From the NCBI GenBank assembly GCA_009835005.1, contig WTFG01000002.1, forward strand, positions 1 through 64,000: a DNA stretch of 64,000 bases. The letters run 5' to 3'. Shown piece after piece: positions 9,043 through 49,913 of the stretch. A program made the translations under genes and the position numbers. The notes beneath the pieces were generated by a model. It was given only the letters and a program-made list of their open reading frames with translations. It was not told the origin of the DNA and made no database searches. Position 1 is the first letter of the stretch. The number at the start of each line of letters is the position of its first letter. The stretch comes from Flavobacteriaceae bacterium Ap0902 (lineage in GTDB: Bacteria > Bacteroidota > Bacteroidia > Flavobacteriales > Weeksellaceae).

Positions 9043-9173
9043 TTCAATATAGAAATTTTGCTTCTGAAAATTTTATAATATAGAAAGATTAAATGCGTTA
9101 TGATTTAAGCCGTATTAAATAATTCATAAACGATAATTCTAAAAAAATATTTTGTAGATATAAATTTATAATT

Positions 9174-9562: not shown

Positions 9563-9566
9563 AAAA

Positions 9567-9582
9567 TGTATAAAATTATACG
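9567..9582. promoter_or_regulatory. Operator-like palindrome upstream of XRE1
   Basis: TGTATAAAATTATACG, a 16-bp palindrome with one end mismatch, immediately upstream of the XRE1 start. The perfect version (TGTATAAAATTATACA) lies at 45324-45339 before XRE2. Position and conservation suggest an autoregulatory XRE operator. A TATTTTTG -7-like element lies about 50 bp further out, facing the peptide gene direction. Confidence 0.55.
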
Positions 9583-9665
9583 TAAATATAATATTTTAAT
9601 ACGATTTATTGAGCTATAAATTGATTTTCAAATATATTTTTGCTATATAATTATTTGAACGAGTC

Positions 9666-9670
9666 AAATA
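9666..9670. repeat. Prophage target-site duplication, left copy
   Basis: AAATA directly before the prophage end. The same five bases occur at 42876-42880 after the other end. The uninterrupted paralogous site near 45423 has a single AAATA in GTCAAATAAATAATTTT, matching 5-bp Mu-type duplication. Confidence 0.8.
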
Positions 9671-9680
9671 TATAATCCGC

Positions 9681-9696
9681 AAAACAAATTGTACAA
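9681..9696. repeat. Prophage terminal inverted repeat (late end)
   Basis: AAAACAAATTGTACAA, ten bases from the element boundary. Its complement with one mismatch is at the other end. Neighbouring GTACAAAA repeats probably form further transposase-binding sites. Confidence 0.75.
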
Positions 9697-9724
9697 AAAT
9701 TTAAAACGAAAAGTACAAAATTAA

Positions 9725-9760
9725 AACGGATAAACATCGGTGTTGAGATGTTTATCCGTT
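9725..9760. terminator. Bidirectional terminator at the late end
   Basis: 14-bp perfect stem AACGGATAAACATC / GATGTTTATCCGTT with an 8-base loop, T-rich on both sides. It ends the minus-strand methyltransferase transcript and isolates the prophage edge. Confidence 0.8.
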
Positions 9761-9803
9761 TTTGATTATAAGCCTTCATGCTTATAATTGCAACATATAA
9801 GTC

Positions 9804-10640
9804 TTATGTCTTATAATAGTACATTATATCCTTATAACTGGCATTATGGGTAACTTTATTGCTAACTACCGTACAAGTAGCATTGGCAAATGGCAACACG
9901 CCAGGCGTGCGGGTTTCAACCCAATCAAACAACTCTACAATGTGGCTTTTATTAGAGGTAAAATAAAAGTAATTACCATCAAGGACATGAACTATATCTA
10001 AATAATCCGAAAGACTCCAATAATCACCATTTTTATATGTAGATGAATCTGTGCTGAGGTAAGGAGGATCTACCAAGAACACCACATTGTCTAGGTCTTT
10101 ATAACGGCTATATAACTGCTGATAATCTTCTGAAACTATCTCTATACCTGCTAAATAATCGTCGGCTTCTTGGAAGTTAGCTTTTCTTATATTGTTATAC
10201 ATTGTATCATTTATGAAATCTTCCAATTTCACACCATAATTCATACTAAACTTTAAACTAGGCGAAAGGCTAATCCAATCCACACAACCCCGCTCACTCG
10301 CTTGTTTCAACGCGTTACAGACCATCTCTCTTTCTTTGCCTACAATCTTACCACCACGTGGTGTTTGTAAATTTAAAGCCCTTAGTTCATCTAGTATGCG
10401 GTTAGTTTCTGGTATAGCCAGCAGACGCTTTCTGTAGTTATCAAAATCGTTGTAGACTACCGTTGCGGTTGGGTGAACATACTTAACTGTATGGCTTAAT
10501 AGACCACTCCCGCCAAATAAATCCACATAGTTAGCATCTTCTGGAAATTCCTTTAATGCCCCCTTAAAATGTTTCACAAAAAATCTTTTTTGCCCCTGAA
10601 ATGGCAATGGTGCCGATTTCCATTCTTTTCTTTTACTCAT
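9804..10640 (-). CDS. DNA adenine methyltransferase (D12/Dam-like)
   Basis: About 278 residues from the ATG at 10640 (MSKRKEWKSAPLPFQGQKRF). The longer upstream frame overlaps a structured leader and is unlikely. An AdoMet-binding motif YVDLFGGSGLLSHT lies near residue 40 and the catalytic motif IV as VFLVDPPYLS near residue 210, the D12 class N6-adenine order. It is the last gene before the prophage end, the place held by the mom modification gene in Mu, so it may protect phage DNA from host restriction. A long inverted-repeat leader precedes it (10671-10787), suggesting regulated expression. Confidence 0.85.
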   Translation of the reverse strand: MSKRKEWKSAPLPFQGQKRFFVKHFKGALKEFPEDANYVDLFGGSGLLSHTVKYVHPTATVVYNDFDNYRKRLLAIPETNRILDELRALNLQTPRGGKIVGKEREMVCNALKQASERGCVDWISLSPSLKFSMNYGVKLEDFINDTMYNNIRKANFQEADDYLAGIEIVSEDYQQLYSRYKDLDNVVFLVDPPYLSTDSSTYKNGDYWSLSDYLDIVHVLDGNYFYFTSNKSHIVELFDWVETRTPGVLPFANATCTVVSNKVTHNASYKDIMYYYKT

Positions 10641-10670
10641 ATATAAATTATTTATTGTTATTTTTGCATC

Positions 10671-10787
10671 TCTCAGGGTAAACAACGAAAAAAGCACGAA
10701 ACTAAAGAAGACCTAATGTCCTCCGTAGCTTCGTGCTCGTTGTTTAAAATACCCTGAGAAAGTTTTTAAAGCGGAGGGCATTTTTTT
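10671..10787. other. Structured element before the methyltransferase gene
   Basis: Nested inverted repeats: TCTCAGGGTA (10671-10680) with TACCCTGAGA (10750-10759), AACAACGA (10681-10688) with its complement at 10737-10744, and GCACGAA (10694-10700) with TTCGTGC (10730-10736). The loop contains CCTCCG (10720-10725), which can pair with CGGAGG (10772-10777) outside the stem, giving a possible pseudoknot. On the plus strand the downstream arm is followed by seven T's. It could be a leader controlling the minus-strand methyltransferase or a small plus-strand RNA. Confidence 0.6.
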
Positions 10788-10817
10788 ATTCCTACCTCCA
10801 ACGGAATTAAACAGTAT

Positions 10818-11381
10818 TTAAACCATCTTTAAAAGCCGTTTAAACACCATAAACAAACCTGTGCCTTGACCTATCCAAATCAATGCGATGGCTAGCAAAA
10901 CCCACAGCAAGTATTTAAAATTATTAGTGATTTTATCCATTTCTACTTTAGTGGTTTCGTCTAATTGCCTTAACTCTTTTAGTTCGCTGTTTTGTTGGCT
11001 TATAATTGTTTCAAGCGTGTTTATTTGAGTTTCTAATACTTTATACTTTTCACTAATAGAACTATCCTTAACAGCCTTATTTTCGGTGTAGCTGCCATTT
11101 TGTACTTCTAAACTTCTATAAGGCTTACCATCTCTAAACTCTGTTAGAACAGCTGGTTTAGTGCTGTCTTTGCTACTCAATGAAACGTTATAGCCAAACC
11201 CAAAAGAACTAAGATTATAGTCCTTTTGGGTTTGGTTAAAATCAAACTTTTCATTTTGTCTATTCAGCTGGATAGCACCAGTATTTGTAATACTTTTTAC
11301 ATCTGTCTTGGTGTGTGTTTTTTGCGTTTTGCAACCCCAAAACAACAGTATTAAGCTAAACAATAACGTAACCGCTCGCAT
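10818..11381 (-). CDS. Candidate unimolecular spanin (lipoprotein with C-terminal TM)
   Basis: 187 residues: lipoprotein signal MRAVTLLFSLILLFWGCK (Cys17), a periplasmic stretch, a coiled coil around residues 105-150 (KYKVLETQINTLETIISQ QNSELKELRQ), and a C-terminal transmembrane helix (~157-177, LLWVLLAIALIWIG). An outer-membrane lipid anchor plus an inner-membrane anchor in one chain is the layout of u-spanins such as T1 gp11, which fuse the two membranes at the end of lysis. It overlaps the endolysin gene by 26 bases and ends the lysis cassette, supporting this role. No sequence-level match was checked. Confidence 0.6.
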   Translation of the reverse strand: MRAVTLLFSLILLFWGCKTQKTHTKTDVKSITNTGAIQLNRQNEKFDFNQTQKDYNLSSFGFGYNVSLSSKDSTKPAVLTEFRDGKPYRSLEVQNGSYTENKAVKDSSISEKYKVLETQINTLETIISQQNSELKELRQLDETTKVEMDKITNNFKYLLWVLLAIALIWIGQGTGLFMVFKRLLKMV

Positions 11382-37592: not shown

Positions 37593-38450
37593 TTAATCAG
37601 AGTTTTTATTGGCTAACTTTAAAGCATGCACCTTACGTTTTACCCTTCTTAAATCACCTTCGCACTCCTTCCAAACTTCTTTGATTTGTTCTTTCTCTGT
37701 AATACCATTTACGTGGCATAATTGAATCACATCTTGCTGGGTCACTCCTGCTAGTTCTATGAATTTCCTACCAATACGGCTATAAATCTCGTTGTATCCT
37801 TTTTTATTAAGTTTTAATCCTCTTTTAATTCTTTTTTCTAAGTGATCGGTAGCACAAATCACAATGCCGCAATGATCCTCCAACTGGTTATATATGGTTA
37901 TAAAGAAATAAAGCACCTGATCTGTCACTTTATCAAATTCATCTAAAAGCAATACAGGGCTTTCCGCCGCCTTCAATAGGCGTACAACTTCACTCATCAT
38001 GTCATTAATGGTAAGTCCAGAATAATCACGCCCCATGCTGGTTAATAACTCACCCATAAAGGCTTTACGATTCCAGTATTCGTTGCATTGCACCATATAA
38101 GCCTCACTATGTTGACGCTCATATTCTTTAAGCGTATATGTCTTACCTCCGCCAGCGCTTTCTACAACCGCATATACTTGACTATTTGTTTGCGCATCAG
38201 AAATAACATTGGATAGAATTTGGTAATTAGCAGTTTCCACACCAATCCAATCCGTTTTTTCGACGCCAATTTGTGATTCAATACTGCGCCATTTACCGTC
38301 ACTTATTCTATCCCAATTATTATTTAGTACTTGAGATATTAGGGCGGACGAAACGTCCTTTAAAGTGTTAGCCGCTTTGTTCTGCCCACCTTTTCGCTCA
38401 CAGTACCCCTTGAGCGCATTAGTAATTTTTTGTTTTCTTTGATTATTCAT
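37593..38450 (-). CDS. MuB-like AAA+ ATPase, transposition target protein
   Basis: 285 residues from ATG 38450 (MNNQRKQKITNALKGYCERK); the upstream in-frame extension crosses a hairpin and is unlikely. The N-terminal 60 residues form a lambda-repressor-like helix-turn-helix (NKAANTLKDVSSALISQVLN). Walker A is VVESAGGGKTYTLK; Walker B is PVLLLDEFDKVTD; then CATDHLEKRIKRG (sensor region). The architecture and the place directly behind MuA are as in Mu. It binds target DNA, activates MuA, and gives target immunity. Confidence 0.9.
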   Translation of the reverse strand: MNNQRKQKITNALKGYCERKGGQNKAANTLKDVSSALISQVLNNNWDRISDGKWRSIESQIGVEKTDWIGVETANYQILSNVISDAQTNSQVYAVVESAGGGKTYTLKEYERQHSEAYMVQCNEYWNRKAFMGELLTSMGRDYSGLTINDMMSEVVRLLKAAESPVLLLDEFDKVTDQVLYFFITIYNQLEDHCGIVICATDHLEKRIKRGLKLNKKGYNEIYSRIGRKFIELAGVTQQDVIQLCHVNGITEKEQIKEVWKECEGDLRRVKRKVHALKLANKNSD

Positions 38451-38472
38451 AACTTCGTGTATCTTAATTAGC

Positions 38473-38492
38473 GCCCCGCAAGGGGCTTTTTT
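38473..38492. other. Hairpin between muA and muB
   Basis: GCCCC-GCAA-GGGGC followed by TTTTTT on the plus strand. No plus-strand gene reads into it. It lies in the 52-base gap between the MuA stop and the MuB start, so it may act on the minus transcript as an RNA stability or attenuation element, or stop antisense transcription. Confidence 0.55.
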
Positions 38493-38502
38493 ATGTTTTA
38501 TT

Positions 38503-40512
38503 TTAAAGCCTACTGGCAATATCTATCTCCTCTATTGGTAATGCCTCTAAATCATCATCCCAATCTTGATTGCTTAATTTCTTTTGGTATTCGCCAATCT
38601 CACCAGACTTTTTACGGCCTCTCTTACTTCGCTCCAGTCCTTTTATGTTTGGACGGTTGAGCCCTTGTTGTTCGTTAGTCATACCAAATTCCTCAAGTAA
38701 TTCCTCCATTTTATCTCTCTTGACAATACGTTGCTCCTGGTTTGCCTGTAGAACCTTTCTAATGTGAGACTGTTCCCAATCTTCTTGCATCTGCATTGCT
38801 CTACCAACTTCTTTTTTCGTTTGTGCAACCGTCACGAACCTCAATCCTAGAGGTGTATCCTCAAAAAGTCTAATTTCACTCATGTCTTCTGGGTCAAACT
38901 TGACGATGTAGGATTTGCCTACAGATTTGCTTAACCAGTCTAAATCTGGCATTCCTTGCTCGTCATAGACCATGTAATCATATTTCACTTTGCTTTCTCT
39001 AAAAGAAATACCACTCGCATCGGCTTTAATGGTCTTAGGTCGAGTTACCCAGAACATGTCTACCATATCCCATATTTCTACTTTCTTAGTGTCAGGATTG
39101 TGGCTTTCATAATACATATCTATGCGTGGTTTTCCAGTCTTGTGGTGCGGAGCAGCATTCCACTCACGTCTGCGCTGTTCATAAATGGCTTTAACTTCTT
39201 CTAGGGTTGGAAGTTTTGCTTTATTAGCCAAAATCATCTCCATGTTGGCTTTAGATTCTTGTTTTTTAGCAGTAATATTTTGCCCAGTAAAGAACCAATC
39301 TTGCTTTAGGTAATGTTGTTGGAATCTACCAAACAGACTTTCTATCGTTTTAGATTTACCATTATATGGCTGTGTTGCTGTTTGTATTTTGGCGATTTTG
39401 CTTAAAAAATTACCTGCCTGTAACTTTCCGTGTCCTCCCTGATTATCATACTTGATTTGATAGGGTCTAAATCCTGCTGTTTGAATTGCCATTTTGTAAG
39501 CCGAGTATTGTGCTTCATAATTCTCGGTAGGGCTAATATGGAAGCCTAAAAGCACCTCACTAAAGGCGTCCATCACTTCATACACTTGGCAGGTTGCCAT
39601 TTCACCGCTTTCCGTTAAATAGTAGTAGTTTAACTTTGTACCATCAGAGAACCAAAGCGAATCCCTAAAGGCTGGCATTTTAGTTTTGAGTTGATAGCCA
39701 AACTTCTCTTTGGCCGCCAATTCACCATGCCTGTAACCATACCATAAGGGTTGAATTTCTGGACTATATAAATAATTGTATAATGTTTTATCAGAGTTAA
39801 TAATCTTCCAACCTTTCTCTGGCGCTATCTGATTGTACTCTGCCTGCAGTTGGATTAATGTAGTACATTTATTCACCTGATTGCTCCACCTTGCTAAAAC
39901 CCAACGTGTGGCATCTTCTGTTAATTTTTGAGCGGCAGTATTCAAGAAGTTACCATGGATTAAACACTCATAACCTTCTTTTAAGTACGCATTATACTTT
40001 TGTTTTAACCTGCGGTGGTTAGAAGGGAGTTTATGTTTGTAGGTGTGTTCTGGTAGGTTAGCAACCGCCTCAGCCATTTTCTTCCAAGCCTTAACTTTAC
40101 CTCCAAACTTTCTGCAGGTAACCACATTGGTTATTACGTGATGGCAAGTATTAAGGATCATAGCCGTATGGGTGTATTCAATTTGAGTATCCTCTGGTAA
40201 GGCAGAACCATCCTCCAGGGTGTAATCTCTATAAAAAGCCTCTGCCTTGTAATCTGGTTTGATATAATCTCTAAAAATGATATGCTTTGTTTTTTCGTAT
40301 GGATCGCCCACTTGCTCAATAATCAATTCTTTGAAACGCTTAGGAATACTCTCAAACGCCACCAATGCTTTACGCCCATTGCCACCATTCACAAGACGAG
40401 TAATTTTACCACGCCTTAATAAGGCCTTATAGTTTGGTTCACTCATAATCTCAGCATCTTCATAGAGCCAAGCGGCATGTATACATAATGTATTTTCGTA
40501 GTATTCAAACAT
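38503..40512 (-). CDS. MuA-like DDE transposase
   Basis: 669 residues. The N-terminus (NYKALLRRGKITRLVNGGNG RKALVAFESIPKRF) is an end-binding region. The DDE catalytic domain shows SLWFSDGTKLNYYYL (Asp, ~residue 283), YQIKYDNQGGHGK (second Asp, ~355) and SKTIESLFGRFQQHYL (Glu, ~390). A Mu-transposase C-terminal beta-barrel follows, then a basic tail (LERSKRGRKKSGEIGEY) that would contact MuB. It carries out replicative transposition. Confidence 0.95.
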   Translation of the reverse strand: MFEYYENTLCIHAAWLYEDAEIMSEPNYKALLRRGKITRLVNGGNGRKALVAFESIPKRFKELIIEQVGDPYEKTKHIIFRDYIKPDYKAEAFYRDYTLEDGSALPEDTQIEYTHTAMILNTCHHVITNVVTCRKFGGKVKAWKKMAEAVANLPEHTYKHKLPSNHRRLKQKYNAYLKEGYECLIHGNFLNTAAQKLTEDATRWVLARWSNQVNKCTTLIQLQAEYNQIAPEKGWKIINSDKTLYNYLYSPEIQPLWYGYRHGELAAKEKFGYQLKTKMPAFRDSLWFSDGTKLNYYYLTESGEMATCQVYEVMDAFSEVLLGFHISPTENYEAQYSAYKMAIQTAGFRPYQIKYDNQGGHGKLQAGNFLSKIAKIQTATQPYNGKSKTIESLFGRFQQHYLKQDWFFTGQNITAKKQESKANMEMILANKAKLPTLEEVKAIYEQRRREWNAAPHHKTGKPRIDMYYESHNPDTKKVEIWDMVDMFWVTRPKTIKADASGISFRESKVKYDYMVYDEQGMPDLDWLSKSVGKSYIVKFDPEDMSEIRLFEDTPLGLRFVTVAQTKKEVGRAMQMQEDWEQSHIRKVLQANQEQRIVKRDKMEELLEEFGMTNEQQGLNRPNIKGLERSKRGRKKSGEIGEYQKKLSNQDWDDDLEALPIEEIDIASRL

Positions 40513-40514
40513 GG

Positions 40515-40589
40515 TTATTCGGCGTTTACAGTATCTTTAATTTTATTGAGCCAATTTTCTATGGCCTGGTTTAGGTTTTGTTGTTCCAT
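40515..40589 (-). CDS. Possible 24-residue leader ORF before muA
   Basis: MEQQNLNQAIENWLNKIKDT VNAE, ending two bases before the muA ATG. The frame is clean and amphipathic helical. It may couple translation into muA or be a small early protein; no homologue known. Confidence 0.35.
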   Translation of the reverse strand: MEQQNLNQAIENWLNKIKDTVNAE

Positions 40590-40680
40590 TTGTTTTATTT
40601 TTGAAGTGTTTAACATTCTACCTATGAGTCATATAATATTGTTTGATAAAAATGTTTCCACTAAAAAAGAAATGATAGAA

Positions 40681-40983
40681 TTACAAGCCCTCTGCGAGGA
40701 TTTCTGCCGTAACAATGGTTTTTCTTGCGGTTGCGATTATTTTGGCTCTGAGTCTCCTTGGGGTTTCCGATTTTCTGCCTCTATAAGTTCTGAGCAAAAG
40801 GATGTCTTGGTTTATATGTCTTTGCTTTTCAACTTTGCTCATATCCACCAGTTCAGCCTCCTTAACTTTAACGTCTATCCCGAAGAAATCTAAATCTACT
40901 TTACTGGGTTTGTCTGTTCTAACCTCTTTCCAGCCGTCTAACAGAACCTCATTGCAATAATTAATCACCTCTATTGTTGCCAT
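40681..40983 (-). CDS. Hypothetical early protein
   Basis: 100 residues (MATIEVINYCNEVLLDGWKE, DLDFFGIDVKVKEAELVDMS). The direction and tight spacing (2 bases from the next early gene) fit the early operon. The overlapping plus-strand frame (40624-40893) also looks protein-like, so which strand is coding is not certain; the operon argument favours this one. Confidence 0.5.
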   Translation of the reverse strand: MATIEVINYCNEVLLDGWKEVRTDKPSKVDLDFFGIDVKVKEAELVDMSKVEKQRHINQDILLLRTYRGRKSETPRRLRAKIIATARKTIVTAEILAEGL

Positions 40984-40985
40984 AT

Positions 40986-41180
40986 CTATATTTTTTTTAA
41001 TGTTTTATTGATCTCTCTCTCTGCTATTTTGTAGTCTTCACAAATCTTGATAGAGGTTTCACTTGTCCTGTCACCTCGAAGGCTTGCGTAAATAAAGTGG
41101 GGAGAGGTGCCATATTTAACTCTTAGTCTTTTTATAATATCCTTATTGTAGGTATTATATTTTTGATTAGATTTACTCAT
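40986..41180 (-). CDS. Small early DNA-binding-like protein (Ner-position)
   Basis: 64 residues, basic (DIIKRLRVKYGTSPHFIYAS LRGDRTSETSIKICEDYKIA EREINKTLKKI). The helical pattern resembles a compact helix-turn-helix. It is the first gene of the early operon, divergent from the repressor, the place of Ner in Mu, which shuts off early and repressor transcription. Identity by position. Confidence 0.55.
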   Translation of the reverse strand: MSKSNQKYNTYNKDIIKRLRVKYGTSPHFIYASLRGDRTSETSIKICEDYKIAEREINKTLKKI

Positions 41181-41219
41181 TGTTTTATTTGTTTACAATT
41201 TCAATACAGCAAATATAAG

Positions 41220-41262
41220 AGATAATTTTCAACTAATTCAAGTATTTGAAGATAATTTTCAA
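41220..41262. promoter_or_regulatory. Operator region between repressor and early operon
   Basis: Two direct repeats of GATAATTTTCAA (41221-41232 and 41251-41262, 30 bp apart, about three helical turns) flank the inverted repeat TTCAA-GTAT-TTGAA (41238-41251 region). Located in the 87-bp divergent gap between the early genes and the repressor start, as expected for repressor binding sites. Confidence 0.65.
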
Positions 41263-41267
41263 TAATC

Positions 41268-41912
41268 ATGGGACTAATAGTTAATAGAATTAAGCAAATT
41301 GCTGATAATGAAAACATTAAAATAACACCTTTTGAAGAGAGCATTGGTGCTAGTAAAGGTGTTTTATCCCGAGCAATTAAAAACAAAACAGACATTCAAA
41401 GTAAATGGATAAGTAAAGTGGTTGAAAATTATCCCCAATATAGAGCAGAATGGCTCTTAACAGGCAAAGGTGATATGTTGAAAAAAGAACGCCTTCCCTA
41501 TGTCAAAGAGAATAAGAAATATGGCATTCCACTTATTCCTGTTGACGCAATGGCAGGTTTTGGTACAGGTGGCGTACAGATAATGGATTATGATACAGAA
41601 AACTATCATGTGCCAGAATTTACAGAGTTACACGCTGAATTTATGATAAGGGTTAAAGGATCATCTATGTATCCCAAATATAACTCTGGCGATATATTGG
41701 CGTGTAAGAAAATAACCATGTCTTTTTTCCAGTGGAATAAAGTTTATGTATTAGACACAGAGCAAGGAGCATTGATTAAACGAATAAAACCAAGTGAAAA
41801 AGAAGACCATATTTGTTGCGTGAGTGATAATAAAAATTATGATCCTTTTGACCTACATATAAACGAAATTAATGCAATTGCATTGGTACTGGGTGTTATT
41901 AGATTAGAGTAA
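41268..41912 (+). CDS. Phage repressor, XRE domain plus S24 peptidase-like domain
   Basis: 214 residues. N-terminal helix-turn-helix (NIKITPFEESIGASKGVLSR AIKNKTDIQS). The C-terminal S24/LexA-type domain has IRVKGSSMYPKYNSGD with the nucleophile Ser (~residue 133) and TEQGALIKRIKP with the catalytic Lys (~residue 170); a GFGTGG stretch near residue 88 may be the cleavage region. This suggests RecA-dependent self-cleavage and SOS induction, unlike Mu's own c repressor. Divergent from the early operon with operator repeats between. Confidence 0.9.
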   Translation: MGLIVNRIKQIADNENIKITPFEESIGASKGVLSRAIKNKTDIQSKWISKVVENYPQYRAEWLLTGKGDMLKKERLPYVKENKKYGIPLIPVDAMAGFGTGGVQIMDYDTENYHVPEFTELHAEFMIRVKGSSMYPKYNSGDILACKKITMSFFQWNKVYVLDTEQGALIKRIKPSEKEDHICCVSDNKNYDPFDLHINEINAIALVLGVIRLE

Positions 41913-41919
41913 AAAGAAT

Positions 41920-42075
41920 ATGGAAGTATTATATATAATCACAACAGGCATTGTTTGTAATTTGATGGGAACCTTAATGCTAGCGCGAAATTTATTTTTC
42001 GACAAACCACCTAGGGTGGGTACGTTTATTTACAGCGAAAAAGAAAATCAGATTAGCCAAAAAAAAAGAAGATGA
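41920..42075 (+). CDS. Small membrane protein behind the repressor
   Basis: 51 residues: MEVLYIITTGIVCNLMGTLM LARNLFFDKPPR..., one membrane helix and a charged, Lys-rich tail. It follows the repressor stop by 7 bases, so it would be expressed in the lysogen. Superinfection exclusion is conceivable. Confidence 0.5.
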   Translation: MEVLYIITTGIVCNLMGTLMLARNLFFDKPPRVGTFIYSEKENQISQKKRR

Positions 42076-42134
42076 TTTATTCCGAAAGAAGAGCTTAAGA
42101 AATAAAATTGGTGTAGGGCTTAACATTTTTGGAC

Positions 42135-42305: not shown

Positions 42306-42506
42306 TCTACAAATGTACAAATTCCACGTGTTTTCCTGTTTAATTTTCATCGAAACTAACATTGTCTATTGATTATCAGTTAATTAATAAGCATGCAATA
42401 GTCCTTTTACTTGGCGTTATCCCCCTTCTAATAGTTGTTCTTAGTGTGTTTTAGCACTCATTTTACGCAATATTACCATTTTAATACTTACATTTTTACC
42501 TGTTTT

Positions 42507-42542
42507 TGTATCCCCAACTGTATCCCCAACTGTATCCCCAAC
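42507..42542. repeat. Tandem repeat, 12 bp x 3
   Basis: TGTATCCCCAAC three times without mismatch, 330 bp inside the early end. Its role is unknown; it could be a protein-binding array or transposition enhancer, or a slipped-strand product. Confidence 0.85.
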
Positions 42543-42850
42543 CAGGAAAGTGTTATAATTTTATAATTGCATTTAAGCAATGTTTAAACAGTAGAAAATG
42601 GCTTTTAAATAAGTGTTTAAAAGGCATAAAAAAAGCCCTAAAAGGGCGTGTATAGTAGTTTTGCGGTATATTGTATTTCTAAATGGTAGTTATGCCTTAA
42701 AAGGTGGTGTTTAATGCATCTGTAACAGGTAATTAAAATGTAGTTAATAGTAGATAATTGCACATTTTGTTTACAAACATAAAAAGGGCTAAACAGCCCT
42801 CAATCCCTTAATATAAGCCGTTTTTATAGGCTTTTCTCTTTCTCTCTTTA

Positions 42851-42875: not shown

Positions 42876-42880
42876 AAATA
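42876..42880. repeat. Prophage target-site duplication, right copy
   Basis: AAATA after the element end, continuing as AAATAAATAATTTTAAATTT, which is the same sequence as upstream of the peptide gene at 45451. Confidence 0.8.
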
Positions 42881-42903
42881 AATAATTTTAAATTTATATT
42901 TTT

Positions 42904-43101
42904 ATGAAAAAATTAGAAATTAGTCAAATGGAGAGATTTGAAGGATCTTGGAGTTGGGAAGGTTGTGCTGCAGGAGCAGTTGGAGCAGCGAATGTTGCAA
43001 TCGCATCCGGAGCCGTTGCCGCAGGATCAGCCTTTGCTGGATGGGGCGGTGGTGCTGTTTTAGCAAGTGCAGCATTGGCAGGCTGTGCTTTTGCAGGTTA
43101 A
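42904..43101 (+). CDS. Bacteriocin-like peptide 1, two-cysteine Gly/Ala-rich core
   Basis: 65 residues. The leader MKKLEISQMERFEGS is almost identical to that of peptide 2 (MKKLEISQMEKFEGG), with GS in place of GG. The core is Ala/Gly-rich and hydrophobic with two cysteines only (Cys21, Cys61). Double-glycine leaders are cut by C39 peptidases such as the transporter at 47814. The prophage has been inserted between this gene and the promoter segment that precedes its paralogue. Activity as bacteriocin is inferred. Confidence 0.75.
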   Translation: MKKLEISQMERFEGSWSWEGCAAGAVGAANVAIASGAVAAGSAFAGWGGGAVLASAALAGCAFAG

Positions 43102-43128
43102 TCAATCCTTACAGGTTTAAAATTATGT

Positions 43129-43155
43129 AAGATGGGGCTAGAATATCCCCATCTT
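43129..43155 (+). terminator. Terminator/attenuator after peptide 1
   Basis: AAGATGGGG / CCCCATCTT, 9-bp stem with 9-base loop, followed by a T-rich stretch. It would limit read-through from the peptide gene into the ABC exporter genes, giving peptide in excess. Confidence 0.8.
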
Positions 43156-43176
43156 AATAACTTTTTTACATAACTA

Positions 43177-43875
43177 ATGATTAAAACTATATTCAAAGCT
43201 TATTATTCAAATCCATTTGGGTCATATTTTATTTATAAATTAATTGGTCCATTCTATTATACTATTGTAAATTTTATATTTCACCTTCTTCTATATAATG
43301 TTTTAGGTATTATAATTTATGGTTTGTCTTTTGAAAACAGAAATCAAATATCATTAAATAAATCACCTAATTTTCTTATTTTTTCACTACTGATTTTAGG
43401 TGTTTTTCTATTTATTTATGAAATCACCAATTTTATAAGGAATAAGGAATTGATAATTCAGGTGTTGATTAAGAATAGATTTACAAATGCTTGGTATAAA
43501 CTATCGAAAATTAACTTTCTATTTGTTCCGTTGAATTTTTTAATTGGATTTTTTGTTGTTTATCCAATTTTTCTTTTTTCCTATACTTCTTTTAATGTTG
43601 TAAACGTCATTGTAGGGTTATTTGTGGCCTTAATATTATCTTTAATAATGAATCAATTGATTCTTTTGTATGAGCTATCATCTTCTATATCTGACAACTT
43701 GAGAAAAATCCCATTTGCATATCTCATAAGTGGAATTTCAATTTTATCATACCATTATCTAAAGGGCATTTATTTGAATAATATTTCTATGTTATTAATA
43801 TTAATGTTGTTTTTACTGCTTTCCTCTTTGTTAAATATAATTCTTATAAAGAAATGTACATTCCATTTAAAGTAA
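43177..43875 (+). CDS. ABC-type exporter membrane protein
   Basis: 232 residues with about six membrane segments (e.g. IINYGLSF-preceding FHLLLYNVLGIIIYGL, NFLIGFFVVYPIFLFSYTSF, VIVGLFVALILSLIM, LLILMLFLLLSSLLNIILI). No enzyme motif. It is followed by a second small membrane protein and an ABC ATPase, so together they probably form an ABC-2-type exporter for immunity or peptide transport, similar in layout to bacteriocin self-protection exporters. Confidence 0.6.
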   Translation: MIKTIFKAYYSNPFGSYFIYKLIGPFYYTIVNFIFHLLLYNVLGIIIYGLSFENRNQISLNKSPNFLIFSLLILGVFLFIYEITNFIRNKELIIQVLIKNRFTNAWYKLSKINFLFVPLNFLIGFFVVYPIFLFSYTSFNVVNVIVGLFVALILSLIMNQLILLYELSSSISDNLRKIPFAYLISGISILSYHYLKGIYLNNISMLLILMLFLLLSSLLNIILIKKCTFHLK

Positions 43876-43877
43876 TT

Positions 43878-44216
43878 ATGAAGTTATTTTTTAAGAAGGA
43901 TTTATGGTTTAGTTTAGGGGTGATTTTATCATCCCAATGGGTTACATCTGTAAATCTATCTTTTTTTCTATATATTACAGGAATATTGATGTTAATAAAA
44001 AACAATTTTGCATTTTTTAAAAATTATAATCCAATCATTCGCTATAGCATAATTCATTCAAACTCAATCAAATTATTTATAAGTTATATATTATTCGAAT
44101 TATCACTGAGTCTGATATTATTACTATTCCTAGCTATTGAGAAATTTATTTTAGTTTTTGTAATAATAATTATATCCAATGGATACAATTTCTATAAACT
44201 TATAATCTATGATTGA
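43878..44216 (+). CDS. Small membrane partner of the ABC exporter
   Basis: 112 residues from ATG 43878 (MKLFFKKDLWFSLGVILSSQ), three or four hydrophobic segments (FFLYITGILMLIK, LFISYILFELSLSLILLLFL, FVIIIISNGYNFY). It lies two bases after the preceding membrane gene and overlaps the ATPase start by 8 bases. Short for an ABC permease, it may be one half of it. Confidence 0.55.
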   Translation: MKLFFKKDLWFSLGVILSSQWVTSVNLSFFLYITGILMLIKNNFAFFKNYNPIIRYSIIHSNSIKLFISYILFELSLSLILLLFLAIEKFILVFVIIIISNGYNFYKLIIYD

Positions 44217-44793
44217 ATTTAAAAAGGTTACAAAAAAATACAATAATAATATTGTTTTTGATAATTTCTCAAAGCATTTTGAAAATAATAAAATTTATCA
44301 TTTAACAGGGCGTAATGGGTCTGGCAAATCAACTATGTTACAAATGATAGCTGGTTTGGTGAAACCGCAAAAAGGGCAACTTATATTTAGTGATAAAGAC
44401 TTTAAAAAAAAGACAAGCTTCTTATTTCATGAACCACTTTTTATAAAGGATTTGAGTATTTTAGATAACGTTAAATTACATTTTTATATAATGTCTTTGA
44501 CAAATATAGACTTGGAATATCTAGAGTTTTTATCATCTATGTTAGTTATACCCTTAGATGAAAGAATTGATACGTTTTCGAAAGGAATGAAGAAAAAAGC
44601 AGAGATATTAATCTCTATTTCACATAAACCAATTTATTGTATTTGGGATGAGCCTTTCGATGGTATTGATGAAGAATCTATTCAAGTAATAAAAAGAAAT
44701 ATTCTAAGTAATTTTGAATTTGGAATTATTTCATCTCACTTAATATCTCCATCGAATCATATTTATAATTTAAGCTCTGATGTGATAATGTAA
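44209..44793 (+). CDS. ABC transporter ATPase
   Basis: 194 residues. Walker A LTGRNGSGKSTMLQMIAG (~residue 38), signature FSKGMKKKAEILISIS (a variant of LSGGQ, ~125), Walker B IYCIWDEPFDGIDEES (~148) and a switch His region FGIISSHLISPS (~172). It is short but complete. With the two membrane genes before it, it forms a compact exporter next to the peptide genes, most likely for producer immunity. Confidence 0.8.
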   Translation: MIEFKKVTKKYNNNIVFDNFSKHFENNKIYHLTGRNGSGKSTMLQMIAGLVKPQKGQLIFSDKDFKKKTSFLFHEPLFIKDLSILDNVKLHFYIMSLTNIDLEYLEFLSSMLVIPLDERIDTFSKGMKKKAEILISISHKPIYCIWDEPFDGIDEESIQVIKRNILSNFEFGIISSHLISPSNHIYNLSSDVIM

Positions 44794-44989
44794 ATTAATT
44801 AAAATTATTGGATATTATTACTAATTTAGTTTAATAATTATCAATGTTATAGTGTTGATTAAGTGGTAGTTGTATTATGATTTAAGTCGCATTAAGTAGT
44901 CCGTAAACGATAATAAATTTTTTAAGTGGATGTAAATTTAGAATTGTATCTATTTTTTAAAAGTTCTCGCAAAAAAAGGATTTCCTCCT

Positions 44990-45319
44990 CTAATTTTCAA
45001 TCGTTTGATCTTTGGATAGAATCAATTTTTGAATGGTTTCTTGATTTTCTTGAAATAAATTTTGAACATAACCATTTACTTGATTACTTTTCTTATTATT
45101 TTGATGATAAATATTTTGGGGTTCATCTCCTACTAGTTGAGCAAAATGCACCTGCAAAATTTCAGATATTTTCATTAATCGTTGCACGTCTATCCTAGTC
45201 TCTTGATTTTCTAAGCGTGCATAAGAAGCTTGACTTATTTCTAATTCTAAAGCCATATATTCTTGTGAAAAACCTTTGTTTTCACGAAATTTCCTAATAC
45301 GATTTCCTATATTATTCAT
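44990..45319 (-). CDS. XRE-family regulator XRE2
   Basis: 109 residues from ATG 45319 (MNNIGNRIRKFRENKGFSQE). An XRE helix-turn-helix in residues 5-60, then QNNKKSNQVNGYVQNLFQEN, and a start of a coiled coil (ETIQKLILSKDQTIEN). Compared with XRE1, one T is missing in a T-run near 44994-44997, so the last ~17 residues (KLEEEIIFLRELLKNK in XRE1) are lost. The DNA-binding part is intact. Divergent from peptide 2; likely controls the peptide promoter. Confidence 0.8.
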   Translation of the reverse strand: MNNIGNRIRKFRENKGFSQEYMALELEISQASYARLENQETRIDVQRLMKISEILQVHFAQLVGDEPQNIYHQNNKKSNQVNGYVQNLFQENQETIQKLILSKDQTIEN

Positions 45320-45323
45320 AAAA

Positions 45324-45339
45324 TGTATAAAATTATACA
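45324..45339. promoter_or_regulatory. Perfect operator palindrome in the XRE2/peptide 2 region
   Basis: TGTATAAAATTATACA, a perfect 16-bp palindrome 4 bases before the XRE2 start. On the plus strand a TATTTTTG -7-like element near 45391-45398, with TTG about 23 bases before it, is a candidate peptide promoter within reach of the regulator. Confidence 0.6.
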
Positions 45340-45450
45340 TAAATATAATATTTTAATACGAATTATTGAGCTATAAATTGATTTTCAAATATATTTTTGT
45401 TATGTAATTATTTGAACGAGTCAAATAAATAATTTTAAATTTATTTTTTT

Positions 45451-45648
45451 ATGAAAAAATTAGAAATTAGTCAAATGGAGAAATTCGAAGGCGGTATTGA
45501 TTGTTCAACTGGTTTAGGGCTATCAACAGGTCTTGTTGTTGGTGGAGCTTTATTAATGGGTACTGGGCTAGGGGCAGGTTTAGGGGTTTACTTAATTGGG
45601 TCAGCATCTTTCATGCTTTCAGGGGGTAATTGTGCAGATGCTTTTTAA
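45451..45648 (+). CDS. Bacteriocin-like peptide 2
   Basis: 65 residues. Leader MKKLEISQMEKFEGG with a canonical double glycine (14-15). Core IDCSTGLGLSTGLVVGG... rich in Gly, Leu and Ser, with two cysteines (Cys18, Cys61). A small hydrophobic core with exactly two cysteines matches the other peptides here. Preceded by the intact regulator/promoter unit; probably exported by the C39 transporter. Confidence 0.78.
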   Translation: MKKLEISQMEKFEGGIDCSTGLGLSTGLVVGGALLMGTGLGAGLGVYLIGSASFMLSGGNCADAF

Positions 45649-45698
45649 GTTACTTTAAAACAATGAATAAAAAATGTATAACTTTAAAAAATAAATAA

Positions 45699-45884
45699 AT
45701 GAAAATATTAAATTTAGAAGAAATGCAAAATGTTGAAGGTGCTGGATTTGTTGATGGTTTATGTGCAGGAATAGGGGTTGCTAGTGTTGTATCAATGTTT
45801 ACACCAGCCGCGCCAGTTGGTATTACTGCTTTAGGGGTTGCAAGTGGAATGTGTGCTGGGTATGCTGTATATAGTATATTCTAA
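45699..45884 (+). CDS. Bacteriocin-like peptide 3
   Basis: 61 residues. Leader MKILNLEEMQNVEGAG of a different subtype (EEMQNVEG), with G-A-G at the probable cleavage site. Core FVDGLCAGIGVASVVSMFTP..., two cysteines only (Cys22, Cys52), ending YAVYSIF. The CAGxG motif after the first Cys is also present in the decayed peptide at 46073-46249. A small membrane protein follows 11 bases later. Confidence 0.75.
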   Translation: MKILNLEEMQNVEGAGFVDGLCAGIGVASVVSMFTPAAPVGITALGVASGMCAGYAVYSIF

Positions 45885-45895
45885 TATTTATATAT

Positions 45896-46045
45896 ATGAA
45901 GAAAAACATTAGAACAGTAATTGCATTGGTATCCTTGCTTGTAATTTTTTTAAATCTTTTTGAAATATATGAGAATAAAATTATACTTGCTATTAGTTAT
46001 TTGGCAATAACAGTTCTTTTATTGATTAAAACAAATAGGGATTGA
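45896..46045 (+). CDS. Small membrane protein, candidate immunity to peptide 3
   Basis: 49 residues (MKKNIRTVIALVSLLVIFLN LFEIYENKIILAISYLAITV...), two membrane helices. It follows peptide 3 by 11 bases. Small two-helix proteins directly behind bacteriocin genes commonly give immunity; the protein at 46260 has the same design behind the decayed peptide. Confidence 0.55.
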   Translation: MKKNIRTVIALVSLLVIFLNLFEIYENKIILAISYLAITVLLLIKTNRD

Positions 46046-46072
46046 AAATCTCTTTACTTAATTTTAATAAAA

Positions 46073-46249
46073 TTGAGTAATTCGGTTATAGGAGAAGTAG
46101 AAAATCTGTAAAGTGGTAATGAAGCTTGGGGTGCTTTTTGTGCTGGTGTAACTATTGGAGCATTTGTTGGATCCGTAGTTGGGGCACCAATTTCTGAAGG
46201 GGCAACATTATTAGTAGGAGCAGTATCGATAGCATGTTTGATTGGTTAA
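46073..46249 (+). pseudogene. Decayed bacteriocin-like peptide
   Basis: The frame reads a leader-like LSNSVIGEVENL, then TAA (46109-46111), then SGNEAWGAFCAGVTIGAFVG ... SIACLIG and stop. The core after the stop has two cysteines with CAG after the first, as in peptide 3. A nonsense codon just before the expected cleavage site and no ATG (TTG 46073 at best) mark it as inactive, unless the stop is read through. Confidence 0.6.
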
Positions 46250-46259
46250 AAGCTTCAAA

Positions 46260-46424
46260 ATGAATAATAAAATATTAGTTATTGTAGTTTTATTTATAAG
46301 TGTATTATTTTTATTGTTTTCGGAATATTTGAATTCGTATTTATGTATTGATGTAAAAAATATATCTTATATTTTACTATTTATCGCTGCAATATTTAGT
46401 TATTTATCATTTAAGAGAAAGTAG
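46260..46424 (+). CDS. Small membrane protein, candidate immunity
   Basis: 54 residues from ATG 46260 (MNNKILVIVVLFISVLFLLF), two membrane helices with a Cys between (NSYLCIDVKN) and a basic end (SFKRK). It follows the decayed peptide by 10 bases and is kept intact, so it may still protect against that peptide type made by others. Confidence 0.55.
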   Translation: MNNKILVIVVLFISVLFLLFSEYLNSYLCIDVKNISYILLFIAAIFSYLSFKRK

Positions 46425-46431
46425 TATGCTA

Positions 46432-46470
46432 AAAGCTATGATTTGGTTTATAAAAGTCATAGCTCTTTAG
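46432..46470 (+). terminator. Terminator after the small membrane protein
   Basis: AAAGCTATGA / TCATAGCT stem with a ~15-base loop followed by CTTTAGTT; weak T tract. The next ~190 bp up to 46663 hold no gene I can support. Confidence 0.55.
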
Positions 46471-46663
46471 TTATATGAAGGCATTAGTTATTTCTTGCCG
46501 ATTTTCAAAAGCTTTTTTTGGTTCACTACAGTATAATTCATTAATGGAAAGAAAAATCTATAGTTGATTAATCTTTTGGTCTCACTTACTTAATGCGCTT
46601 GTTATTCTCATAAATGTAAATTAAACTATAAAACTTTTTATTTTAAAATACTTATAAACTTTG

Positions 46664-47309
46664 ATGAAATTTAACAATTGGCTACACTATCTATTGTTAG
46701 CTCTTGTCTTTCTCTTTTTCTCTTATTTTTTTTATGCATACCCTCCAAAATGATGGGCTTATACGTTCATCTTTATCAGGTAAGTATAGCGATGAGGTTA
46801 TTGCTAACTATTTGGATAGTAGAAAAAAATGGTCATGGCTAGGTTATTTAATAGTTCCGTTGCTTATTTTATTACGTACAGGCCTTATTGCCTTTCTTAT
46901 GCAGATGGCGGTGTTTTTCATTAATCATGAGGATAAAACACCTTTTAATAAATTTTGGGGTGTCGCCCTATCCGCAGAATGGGTAACGATTCTTTTGATA
47001 GCATTTCGTTTTGTTTATTTTACCGTTATAGATACAGACTATACATTGGAGGAATTGCAAAACTATATTCCTGGAGCATTAACCAATGTATACGATGTTT
47101 CTCACCTAGATAACTGGTTAGCATATCCTTTTAATTTGTTAAATATTTGGGAGTTATTATACTGGGTTTTCTTAGTGTCAGGTATACAAGAAATTTTGAA
47201 AACTTCTACTGTGAAGAGCTTTGGAATTGTTCTTGCCTCTTATGGGGTTGGTTTATTGATATGGATTGGTTTTGTGATGTATATGCTTTTAACTACTATT
47301 GATGTATGA
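46664..47309 (+). pseudogene. Membrane protein of the peptide-export operon, frameshifted
   Basis: ATG 46664 opens MKFNNWLHYLLLALVFLFFS YFF, which stops after ~30 codons. The second frame, open from 46704, continues HTLQNDGLIRSSLSGKYSDE VIANYLDSRKKWSWL... to TTIDV at 47309 and has no ATG at its head. Removing one T from the T8 run (46726-46733) joins them into a ~214-residue protein with five or six membrane segments. A protein with this 'QNDGLI...GKYSDEVIANY' pattern occurs next to bacteriocin exporters in related flavobacteria. Either a real mutation, a slippery switch, or a sequencing error. It overlaps the thioredoxin-like gene by 4 bases. Confidence 0.65.
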
Positions 47310-47833
47310 AAAAGAAGAAAATTATTGGGTTATCTTTAGTCACTCTTCTAATTGCCGTATTTAGTTTTATTGTGATTAAAATTTTTCTAAAAAAAGAAGA
47401 AAATAGAATCATTAAGGAGACTAGAATCACAATCCCTGATTTTTCTCTAAAAGACACCTTTGGTAATTTATTTAATAATATAGATATACCAAAAAATGAT
47501 TTCACATTATTCATCGTATTTAATCCAGATTGTCATTTTTGTCAATTAGAAGCAGAGGAAATGAGACAAAAATCGCCGGAATTTAAAGAATTTAATATTT
47601 ATTTTGTTTCATCAGCCCCTATAGACGAAATAAAGGTATTTTCTGAAAATTATAATTTAAATAGACTTACTAATATAAAATTTTTGTACGATGATACAAA
47701 TTCTTTTAGTACTACTGTTGGAGCTACTACCGTGCCTTTTATGATGTTGTATGATAAAAATCATCAATTGATTAAAATATATCAAGGGAGCATTAAATTA
47801 GATGTAATATTGAATGATGCAAAGGAATACTGA
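47306..47833 (+). CDS. Membrane-anchored thioredoxin-like protein (TlpA/redoxin type)
   Basis: 175 residues. An N-terminal membrane anchor (IIGLSLVTLLIAVFSFIVIK IF), then a redoxin fold: ITIPDFSLKDTFGNLFN, LFIVFNPDCHFCQLEAEEM with CHFC active site (~residue 75-78), and cis-Pro region GATTVPFMMLYDK (~150). It would act in the periplasm on thiols. It sits between the peptide genes and the exporter, overlapping the latter by 20 bases. Since every peptide has exactly two cysteines, a role in forming or correcting their disulfide is a reasonable inference. Confidence 0.8.
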   Translation: MKKKKIIGLSLVTLLIAVFSFIVIKIFLKKEENRIIKETRITIPDFSLKDTFGNLFNNIDIPKNDFTLFIVFNPDCHFCQLEAEEMRQKSPEFKEFNIYFVSSAPIDEIKVFSENYNLNRLTNIKFLYDDTNSFSTTVGATTVPFMMLYDKNHQLIKIYQGSIKLDVILNDAKEY

Positions 47834-49913
47834 GAAACGATCAAAAAGAAGCTTTCAGCTTCAACAAGATCAATCTGACTGTGGTGTTGCCTGCTTGAAA
47901 TCTATAATGCAGTTTTATGAGGGCAATGCCACTTTAGAAAAATTGCGCGAATTAAGTGGAACTAATATAACAGGTACAACTGTTCTGGGGCTTTATCAAG
48001 CTGCGAATAAAATTGGTTTTGATGCACAAGGTAACGAGGCAGATATTCAGGCTATCATAGATCATGGAGAACCTCTAATTCTACATGTTTTAATAGAAGG
48101 TAAGTTGCAACATTATGTAGTATGCTATGGTTATGATGAAAACAAGGGCTTTTTAATTGGAGATCCAGCCAAAGGAATTTCATATTATTCTATAGCTGAT
48201 TTAGTTAAAGTATGGAAATCAAAAGTATGTATAACCTTAACGCCTAATAAAAACTTCGTAAAAATCAAGCAGTTTAAGCGATCTAAAATTTCTTGGTATA
48301 GACGCTTATTGATTGAAGATAAAAAACTATTAATATTTAGTCTATTGTTAGGTGTTGGTATTGCTGTATTAAATATGGCTACCGCAATTTTTTCACAAAA
48401 GTTAATTGACAAGATATTGCCTAGCAAAGAATTTCCCCAATTAATTGGCGGGATAGCTCTATTAGGTTTCTTATTATTAGTTAGAGTTGCTTTTTCTTCT
48501 TTGAGAAGTTATTTACTTACTATACAAACTCAAGATTTCAATAATCGAATTATAAGATACTTCTACAGTAATATACTTGCACTGCCAAAGCCCTTTTTTG
48601 ATACTAGAAAAATTGGTGAGTTGACTGCAAGATTAAATGATACAAACAGGATCCAGCGAGTTATTAAGCTTATAGTAAGTAGCTTTGTGATCGATGTCCT
48701 TATGGTTATTACGTCGTTTAGTTTTTTGATTTTTTATTCTTGGCAAATTGGTATAGTCGCAATGATAACCATGCCAGTTTATTTCTTGTTAATATATAGT
48801 TTTAATCATAAAATAATCCATGCTCAAAAACAAGTTATGCAAGGATATGCCATGAGTGAATCTCACTTTATTTCAACTATGCAGGGTATAGATGTAATAA
48901 AGAATTATGATAGAGTGTCCATGTTTGATAAATTAAATCAGAGAATTTATGGCGCATTTCAAGAAAAAGTATTTAATTTAGAATTATTAAATATCAAAAT
49001 CGGAGTTTATTCTGGTCTTGCAGCGGTTGTATTTTTAATAACCATTATTTCTATTGCTTCTACCATGGTTTGGGATGGGCAAATGCTCTTAGGAGAATTA
49101 GTGGCGGTTTTGAGTATCGCAAGTTTATTACTTCCGGCGATTACAAATTTAGCATTAATAACTATTCCTATTAATGAGGCTAAGATTGCTTTTGATCGTA
49201 TGTTTGAATATACTTCTTTAGACAAAGAAGCATCTGGTGAAGAAATCTTGAATGATTTCAAGTCCTTAGAAATAATTGATCTTACCTTTAGGTTTCCAGG
49301 TAGGAGTCCATTATTTCATCATGTGAATTTTAGTATCAATAAGGGTGAAATTATTTTGTTATCTGGTGATAATGGTAGTGGAAAAAGTACCTTGAGTCAA
49401 ATCTTGCAAAAATTTTATAGTTGGGAATCTGGTGATATTATCATTAATAAAGATAAACTTCTTCAAGATATTAGCCTCGAAAGCTGGCGAAAAATTATTG
49501 GAGTTTTACCTCAAGAAATCAATTTATTTCAGGGCAATGTCATAGATAATATTTTGTTAGGAGATAAGCTTGATGAACGTAGGTGGCAACTTTTTATTGA
49601 AGAATATAATTTTGTGCCATTTTTGAAGTCTTTACCCCAAGGATTATCTACAATAATAGGAGAAGAAGGCGTAAATTTATCTGGTGGTCAAAAGCAAATG
49701 CTGGGTATGATGCGTGTTTTATATAAAGAACCACAACTATTGATTTTAGATGAGCCCACCGCATCGATGGATGAAGCTAATGAAGAATTTATTATTGATT
49801 TACTTTCCAAGATTAATAAAACTACTTTCATTGTTTCTCATAGAAATGCAAAATTAGAAAAGATTGCTGATAAGAAATTATTTCTTTCAGGAGGTATTTT
49901 ACGAGAGAATTAG
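47814..49913 (+). CDS. C39-peptidase ABC transporter (bacteriocin export)
   Basis: 699 residues. Residues 1-130: C39 peptidase with LQQDQSDCGVACLKSI (Gln17, catalytic Cys23), LQHYVVCYGYDENKGFLIGD P (catalytic His ~98 and Asp ~114). Residues ~155-450: ABC membrane domain with six helices. Residues ~470-699: ATPase with LSGDNGSGKSTLSQ (Walker A), VNLSGGQKQMLGM (signature), LLILDEPTASMDEAN (Walker B) and FIVSHRNAK (switch His). It cuts double-glycine leaders while exporting the core. Two adjacent ATGs are possible starts. Confidence 0.93.
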   Translation: MMQRNTEKRSKRSFQLQQDQSDCGVACLKSIMQFYEGNATLEKLRELSGTNITGTTVLGLYQAANKIGFDAQGNEADIQAIIDHGEPLILHVLIEGKLQHYVVCYGYDENKGFLIGDPAKGISYYSIADLVKVWKSKVCITLTPNKNFVKIKQFKRSKISWYRRLLIEDKKLLIFSLLLGVGIAVLNMATAIFSQKLIDKILPSKEFPQLIGGIALLGFLLLVRVAFSSLRSYLLTIQTQDFNNRIIRYFYSNILALPKPFFDTRKIGELTARLNDTNRIQRVIKLIVSSFVIDVLMVITSFSFLIFYSWQIGIVAMITMPVYFLLIYSFNHKIIHAQKQVMQGYAMSESHFISTMQGIDVIKNYDRVSMFDKLNQRIYGAFQEKVFNLELLNIKIGVYSGLAAVVFLITIISIASTMVWDGQMLLGELVAVLSIASLLLPAITNLALITIPINEAKIAFDRMFEYTSLDKEASGEEILNDFKSLEIIDLTFRFPGRSPLFHHVNFSINKGEIILLSGDNGSGKSTLSQILQKFYSWESGDIIINKDKLLQDISLESWRKIIGVLPQEINLFQGNVIDNILLGDKLDERRWQLFIEEYNFVPFLKSLPQGLSTIIGEEGVNLSGGQKQMLGMMRVLYKEPQLLILDEPTASMDEANEEFIIDLLSKINKTTFIVSHRNAKLEKIADKKLFLSGGILREN

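Follow-up and report, generated by a model that had tools for sequence, protein, structure and literature searches.

A probable bacteroidetocin-type bacteriocin locus with paired two-cysteine peptides in Flavobacteriaceae bacterium Ap0902

Bacteroidetocins are proposed class IIf bacteriocins known from gut Bacteroides (Coyne et al. 2019, PMC6671954). Their gene sets encode a protein with several transmembrane (TM) helices, a small peptide, in most regions a thiol oxidoreductase, and a C39 ATP-binding cassette (ABC) exporter, and the peptide is defined by a double-glycine leader of 15 to 16 amino acids (aa) and at least two cysteines. In Escherichia coli, the four genes are enough for the toxin to be made, and full activity needs each of the peptide, TM, and oxidoreductase genes. 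Reduction changes the migration of bacteroidetocins in gels, and the cluster oxidoreductase was proposed to form the disulfide. Four Bacteroidetes classes yielded peptides of this type. The 35 regions reported hold 36 peptides, and a single peptide can kill alone (PMC6671954). The target is BamA (PMC8546649). Bacteroidetocins were reported without immunity genes, and the producers are themselves inhibited. Here we describe a comparable locus in Flavobacteriaceae bacterium Ap0902 (contig WTFG01000002.1, positions 1 to 64,000; the window, in what follows, is this whole stretch of 64,000 nucleotides). Like the bacteroidetocin regions, it combines 15-aa leaders and at least two cysteines per peptide with a multi-TM protein, a thiol oxidoreductase, and a C39 ABC exporter, again in a member of the Bacteroidota. 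It is very probably a bacteroidetocin-type (class IIf) bacteriocin locus, an assignment drawn from this four-gene anatomy and from a gut-derived cassette described below, and not from direct alignment with bacteroidetocins A to D.

Precursor peptides and export cassette

When the open reading frames (ORFs) of the window were checked, all feature coordinates given in a first-pass annotation, made from the sequence alone, proved correct. It had described three peptides and one decayed copy with a double-glycine-type leader and a two-cysteine core, and an exporter operon with a C39 transporter and a membrane-anchored CHFC protein, with which the domain matches agree. It had missed a TM gene, two small ORFs for membrane proteins with two helices (2-TM), an ABC module, and an XRE-type regulator. 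The peptides and the cassette are as follows.

42904..43101, + strand: P1 precursor, 65 aa, Cys 21 and 60; leader MKKLEISQMERFEGS; core WSWEGC...AGCAFAG
45451..45648, + strand: P2 precursor, alpha type, 65 aa, Cys 18 and 61; core IDCSTGLG...GGNCADAF
45699..45884, + strand: P3 precursor, beta type, 61 aa, Cys 22 and 52; core GFVDGLCAGIG...GMCAGYAVYSIF
46112..46249, + strand: P4, decayed beta-type core, GNEAWGAFCAG...SIACLIG (frame translation)
46664..47309, + strand: TM protein, 5 helices; 3' reading frame open from 46704, N terminus encoded in a second frame
47306..47833, + strand: membrane-anchored TlpA/ResA-like thiol oxidoreductase with CHFC; Pfam AhpC-TSA, E=2e-10
47814..49913, + strand: C39 peptidase ABC exporter; Peptidase_C39 (E=2e-30), ABC_membrane, ABC_tran

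P1, P2, and P3 are intact small ORFs with Gly/Ala-rich cores that hold exactly two cysteines, one near either end. Their leaders (MKKLEISQMERFEGS, MKKLEISQMEKFEGG, and MKILNLEEMQNVEGA, respectively) are each 15 aa long and of the double-glycine type, ending in GS, GG, and GA. P4 no longer has a start codon, and its leader is interrupted by an in-frame stop at 46109 to 46111; the two-cysteine core can still be read to 46246. Among precursors of other species, one from a Tenacibaculum locus (L094) is 52% identical to P1 over the N-terminal 42 aa of P1 and has the start WSW.GC in common with it, while P2 and P3 are 48% and 30% identical to the alpha and the beta precursor of Tenacibaculum larymnensis, two core types treated below.

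P1 and P2 are identical at 24 of the 25 nucleotides (nt) upstream of the start and at 40 of the 45 nt of the leader; their cores are unrelated. The near-identical promoter-leader blocks that precede these cores lie at 42879 to 42948 and 45426 to 45495. They look like a recent leader duplication, and duplication of leader and promoter may be a way of loading new cores onto the exporter. A promoter scan gave no excess over shuffled sequences, with TANNTTTG boxes at chance level.

The TM, TlpA-like, and C39 genes are tightly packed downstream of the peptides. The CHFC protein is AhpC-TSA/Redoxin/TlpA-like and has one N-terminal helix; the CxxC motif and the cis-proline of the thioredoxin fold are invariant in 16 TlpA-like homologs, and relatives in the PDB include ResA, DsbF, and MPT53. 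Neither VKOR nor DsbB was found in this genome, which is consistent with a dedicated oxidoreductase of the cassette making the disulfide. We think it probable that the product carries one intramolecular disulfide. Related loci encode the TM protein in an uninterrupted ORF of about 210 to 225 aa, with MKN... as the commonest start. A confident AlphaFold model was obtained for the TM protein (predicted local distance difference test [pLDDT], 86; predicted template modeling score [pTM], 0.78), but the PDB held no match by sequence or fold, and the protein has no invariant cysteine with which it could serve as a DsbB-like partner.

As the first-pass annotation had it for lanthipeptide and radical-SAM enzymes, no modifying enzyme (lanthipeptide, sactipeptide, or YcaO) was seen on inspection of the ORFs between 38 and 54 kb and in family scans of the cluster proteins. 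Scans with Pfam and NCBIfam assigned no family to P1, P2, P3, the TM protein, or the permeases of the ABC module.

Related loci and the cysteine pair

We searched for relatives with the TM protein. Conservation in a broad TM alignment was nowhere high enough for scanning, and a narrower alignment was used instead. TM homologs were found in 18 of 297 genomes of the same family (the window's own counted), in 27 of 395 sampled over the phylum, and in 20 of 395 sampled over the class; the same-family relatives with named matches are contigs of Chryseobacterium, Cloacibacterium, Epilithonimonas, and Cruoricaptor, which marks the source as a flavobacterium of Weeksellaceae type. The two genomes sampled from the same genus gave no homolog, and the locus is therefore sporadic.

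A scan of named genomes, also with the TM protein only, gave 80 loci, some on contigs that end early. They come from Weeksellaceae, Flavobacteriaceae (Tenacibaculum, Lutibacter, and Polaribacter), Cytophagales, Sphingobacteriales, Saprospiraceae, and Balneolaceae, and from metagenome-assembled genomes (MAGs) of Bacteroidales and of Kapaibacteria/Ignavibacteria. A TlpA-like gene is present in 74 of them and a C39 exporter in 69, with the order TM-TlpA-C39 in 66. Since the TM protein was the sole query, this co-occurrence is not circular. Many of about 80 Bacteroidota loci besides the window have the same leader and a two-cysteine core adjoining the same exporter genes, so that the combination is not a matter of chance.

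The gut-derived cassette (L191, MT837005.1, positions 100 to 3933) is from human feces and was filed as "Bacteriophage sp."; it looks like a Bacteroidales bacterial contig rather than a phage record. It is a complete two-cysteine cassette with a two-cysteine peptide, a 57-aa two-helix ORF, a TM protein, a TlpA-like protein with CYFC, and a C39 exporter. Identity to the window proteins is 46% for the exporter over its length, 29% for TlpA, and 27% for TM. On a plasmid of Flammeovirga pectinis (positions 4793 to 10874), a TM-TlpA-C39 cassette adjoins GLPGLI and a LanC-family protein. Plasmid pBACSA02 of Phocaeicola salanitronis was set aside as a different double-glycine peptide system, with HlyD and TolC and no TlpA in the region examined.

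The cysteine pair was assessed in 115 precursors of the related loci, chosen on the leader alone. Exactly two cysteines occur in the cores of 78 of the 115, where a Poisson expectation is 27%, and at least two occur in 102. The first-pass annotation had named homologous peptides lacking the pair as grounds for giving up its view, and this check did not refute it. In two-cysteine cores the distance between the cysteines is 0.72 of the core length, compared with 0.34 for random positions; the median distance is 6 residues between the leader and the first cysteine and 4 between the last cysteine and the end. The relatives' cores are 36% Gly plus Ala and nearly uncharged (median net charge, -0.5). 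Precursors with four cysteines occur with the same cassette in four loci (L090, L091, L097, and L107), possible links between the two-cysteine peptides and bacteroidetocins A and B.

Alpha/beta pairs and candidate protection genes

Two different adjacent precursors are conserved together in the window and in loci from several families. In 21 tandem pairs, the beta motif, [DN]FWxGFCxG or close to it, was found nine times in the downstream gene and never in the upstream gene. We built models of the upstream (alpha) and downstream (beta) cores from other species, with the window excluded. Alpha members scored 58 to 78 bits on the alpha model and at most 7 on the beta model, and beta members the reverse. 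P2 scored 21.8 bits on the alpha model, a value reached by none of 2,000 shuffles, and 0.7 on the beta model; P3 scored 26.3 on the beta model (again none of 2,000) and 1.9 on the alpha model. The decayed P4 scored 12.3 bits on the beta model, matched by 2 of 2,000 shuffles, and the P1 core matches neither. The order alpha then beta is common to the window, Tenacibaculum, an uncultured member of the Flavobacteriaceae, Pedobacter, Saprospiraceae, and Flammeovirgaceae. The single uniform peptide family of the first-pass annotation therefore has to be given up: P2 and P3 are two distinct core types that share a format only.

The fixed tandem order in which the types of P2 (alpha) and P3 (beta) recur suggests a two-peptide bacteriocin. 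This is the simplest reading of the pair, and we lean, by a modest degree, toward P2 and P3 acting together. With 36 peptides in 35 regions, such a pair organization lies outside the description by Coyne et al. (PMC6671954), and the same is true of the recurrent 2-TM ORF and the recurrent ABC module. One Saprospiraceae MAG (L131, positions 2400 to 10497) carries about seven double-glycine precursors in 8 kb, most of them with two cysteines, including two tandem pairs.

The candidate protection genes and the candidate regulator are as follows.

45896..46045, + strand: two-helix membrane protein, 49 aa, candidate immunity protein of P2/P3; 12 nt after the P3 stop
46260..46424, + strand: two-helix membrane protein, 54 aa, candidate immunity protein, intact; 10 nt after the P4 stop
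43177..43875, + strand: ABC module membrane protein 1, candidate immunity; no family match
43854..44216, + strand: ABC module membrane protein 2; overlaps both neighboring ORFs; the equivalent in L163 has 118 aa
44209..44793, + strand: ABC module ATPase; TIGR03740, E=8e-29, 100.8 bits against a cutoff of 309.75
44990..45340, - strand: XRE-type regulator, divergent, candidate cluster regulator; tblastn, 13 related loci, minus strand

The 49- and 54-aa ORFs each encode two hydrophobic helices and a polar or basic tail. Counting an ORF when its start lay within -15 to +170 nt after a precursor, we found a small 2-TM ORF after 27 of 102 precursors; the control figures were 6 of 565 for large ORFs of these loci and 0.5% for shuffled DNA. 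In alpha/beta loci it comes after the beta gene and not after every peptide. On this evidence the small 2-TM ORF is somewhat more plausibly an immunity protein than something else.

The ABC module, made up of two membrane proteins and an ATPase, comes after P1 (43177 to 44793). The best NCBIfam match of the ATPase is the lantibiotic-protection ATPase model, at a score below the cutoff. Homologous ATPases lie near 18 of 58 cassette loci, including the Tenacibaculum locus with the P1-like peptide, and the arrangement of a 232- to 266-aa membrane protein, a second membrane protein, and an ATPase is also seen in L094, L109, and L163. In pairwise comparison the permeases of the window had no detectable similarity to those of L094 and L109, so that the arrangement alone is in common. 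The module after P1 most likely protects the producer. A division of labor, with 2-TM ORFs going with pairs and ABC modules with single peptides, was not significant in the counts (p=0.77), a comparison confounded by permease ORFs that can count as 2-TM.

The locus abuts the end of a Mu-like transposable prophage (37593 to 42126 of the window), with a MuB-like ATPase, a MuA-like transposase, and a LexA/C2-like repressor. Tandem "ctgtatcccca" repeats near 42505 to 42545 may be part of this prophage end.

Mechanism, rival readings, and known systems

Taken as a whole, the locus is best explained, in our view with fair likelihood, as bacteroidetocin type, with disulfide-closed peptides, a P2/P3 pair, and protection genes. 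The precursors would be recognized by their 15-aa leaders and cleaved after GG, GA, or GS by the C39 exporter, which would export the cores. Once the core is in the periplasm, its two distant cysteines would be joined in one disulfide by the membrane-anchored, TlpA-like CHFC protein, helped by the TM protein, and a large hydrophobic Gly/Ala-rich loop would result. P2 and P3 would then most likely be a two-peptide toxin against the envelope of competing Bacteroidota, and P1 a separate one-peptide toxin. The two-helix protein or proteins behind the pair would most likely protect the producer, as would the ABC module behind P1.

Several points weigh against this explanation. Apart from the indirect basis of the class assignment, bacteroidetocins A and B and their three nearest peptides have four cysteines and the window peptides two. 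In many loci there is just one peptide, or a pair that matches neither core type. The TM gene of the window, the counterpart of a gene needed for full activity in Bacteroides, is out of frame near its start (46664 to 46760): about 23 residues at the N terminus are encoded in a different frame, which meets the main one at a T-run near 46724 to 46731. This may mean a defective copy or an assembly error. TlpA/ResA-like proteins are often reductases, the direction of thiol chemistry is not readable from sequence, and another general oxidant would be compatible with VKOR and DsbB not being found. What the comparison shows is the set of genes and their order, the leader, the cysteine pair, the conserved tandem order of alpha and beta, and the recurrence of small 2-TM ORFs and ABC modules; killing, the disulfide, synergy of the two peptides, and immunity are what we infer from these.

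If P2 and P3 did not act jointly, the peptides could be independent one-peptide bacteroidetocin-like bacteriocins, whose tandem order would come from duplication and a shared operon. P1 stands alone, 36 of 58 loci have only one cysteine-containing precursor, the leader of P1 and P2 is freshly duplicated, and, among the published peptides, 36 in 35 regions, single ones kill unaided (PMC6671954). However, alpha and beta are distinct core types whose order is conserved in several families, and in alpha/beta loci the 2-TM ORF comes behind the beta gene rather than behind each peptide; we regard independent action as unlikely. The disulfide has a rival of its own, in which the CHFC protein would hold the cysteines in the reduced state or do other chemistry and the product has free thiols, forms dimers, or binds metal or heme. 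The best-known TlpA and ResA-type relatives are reductases, and the TM protein has no conserved cysteine for a DsbB-like partnership; against this, DsbF and MPT53, which are among the relatives, are regarded as oxidants, and both cysteines are kept at the core ends. Bacteroidetocins, moreover, shift in nonreducing gels (PMC6671954), and reduced or otherwise used thiols seem to us quite improbable.

The peptides might also be exported signals (pheromones), with the XRE regulator and the ABC module for sensing or uptake. Such a role would fit the divergent XRE regulator, which lies close to the peptides in 13 related loci, and the low charge of the Gly/Ala-rich cores (median net, -0.5), but the cluster has no receptor kinase, the cores are long, hydrophobic, and highly variable, and the same cassette yields proven toxins in Bacteroides (PMC6671954), which makes signaling very improbable. 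More weight, still on the unlikely side, goes to a relic: a cluster dead in this genome, the mark of a past acquisition, as the TM frame break, the decayed P4, the lack of the TM gene in the two sampled same-genus genomes, and the adjoining Mu-like prophage could indicate. Yet the ORFs of P1 to P3, TlpA, C39, the ABC module, and both 2-TM proteins are without exception intact, and the break, at a homopolymer, may reflect sequencing or assembly error or phase variation as well as decay. Because of the frame break we grade down the functionality of the window copy, which we consider moderately likely.

There is good support for the first-pass annotation's idea of a thiol-closed, C39-exported double-glycine family that has an oxidoreductase of its own, but the kind had already been published as bacteroidetocins (PMC6671954); its statement that no flavobacterial bacteriocin of this type has been characterized holds for the open-access literature, in which we found none. 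The exporter cassette is widespread in Bacteroidota, usually with two-cysteine peptides, often in a conserved alpha/beta pair, and with recurrent candidate protection genes. Tentatively, these loci may form a phylum-wide class of disulfide-closed Gram-negative two-peptide bacteriocins, the alpha and beta chains being inherited as a pair of fixed order with a small two-helix immunity protein and the single peptides going with an ABC immunity module. If so, they would provide the first immunity genes and the first two-chain members for the bacteroidetocin kind. Three matters can now be tested: how the peptides acquire a disulfide in cells without DsbB or VKOR, whether breaching an outer membrane takes two chains, and how the producer survives.

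Other known bacteriocins resemble the locus in part. In class IIb two-peptide bacteriocins of Gram-positive bacteria, two adjacent peptides with double-glycine leaders are followed by a small membrane protein. The window likewise has two different adjacent peptides with leaders of this type and then a small membrane protein; it differs in the cysteine pair of both peptides, the dedicated thiol oxidoreductase, and the Gram-negative producer, and no sequence relation was found. Microcin V, a class II microcin, uses the CvaA adaptor and TolC, has a C-terminal cysteine pair, and lacks a TlpA or TM gene. The window peptides share with it the double-glycine leader, the C39 exporter, the Gly/Ala-rich core, and two cysteines, whereas no adaptor lies beside the window exporter. 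Membership in the microcin V family was rejected, P3 matching Pfam MccV at E=0.019 and 15.9 bits with a cutoff of 27, and P1 and P2 giving no match. Class IIa pediocin-like bacteriocins are similar in leader, size, and disulfide, while the window peptides have neither the YGNGV motif nor a family match. Bacteroidetocins A and B have four cysteines and are 42 aa long when mature, with a single peptide in each region and no immunity gene, whereas the window has two cysteines per peptide, cores of about 46 to 50 aa, an alpha/beta pair, and candidate immunity genes. The gene order also differs, with the peptides of the window preceding the TM gene.

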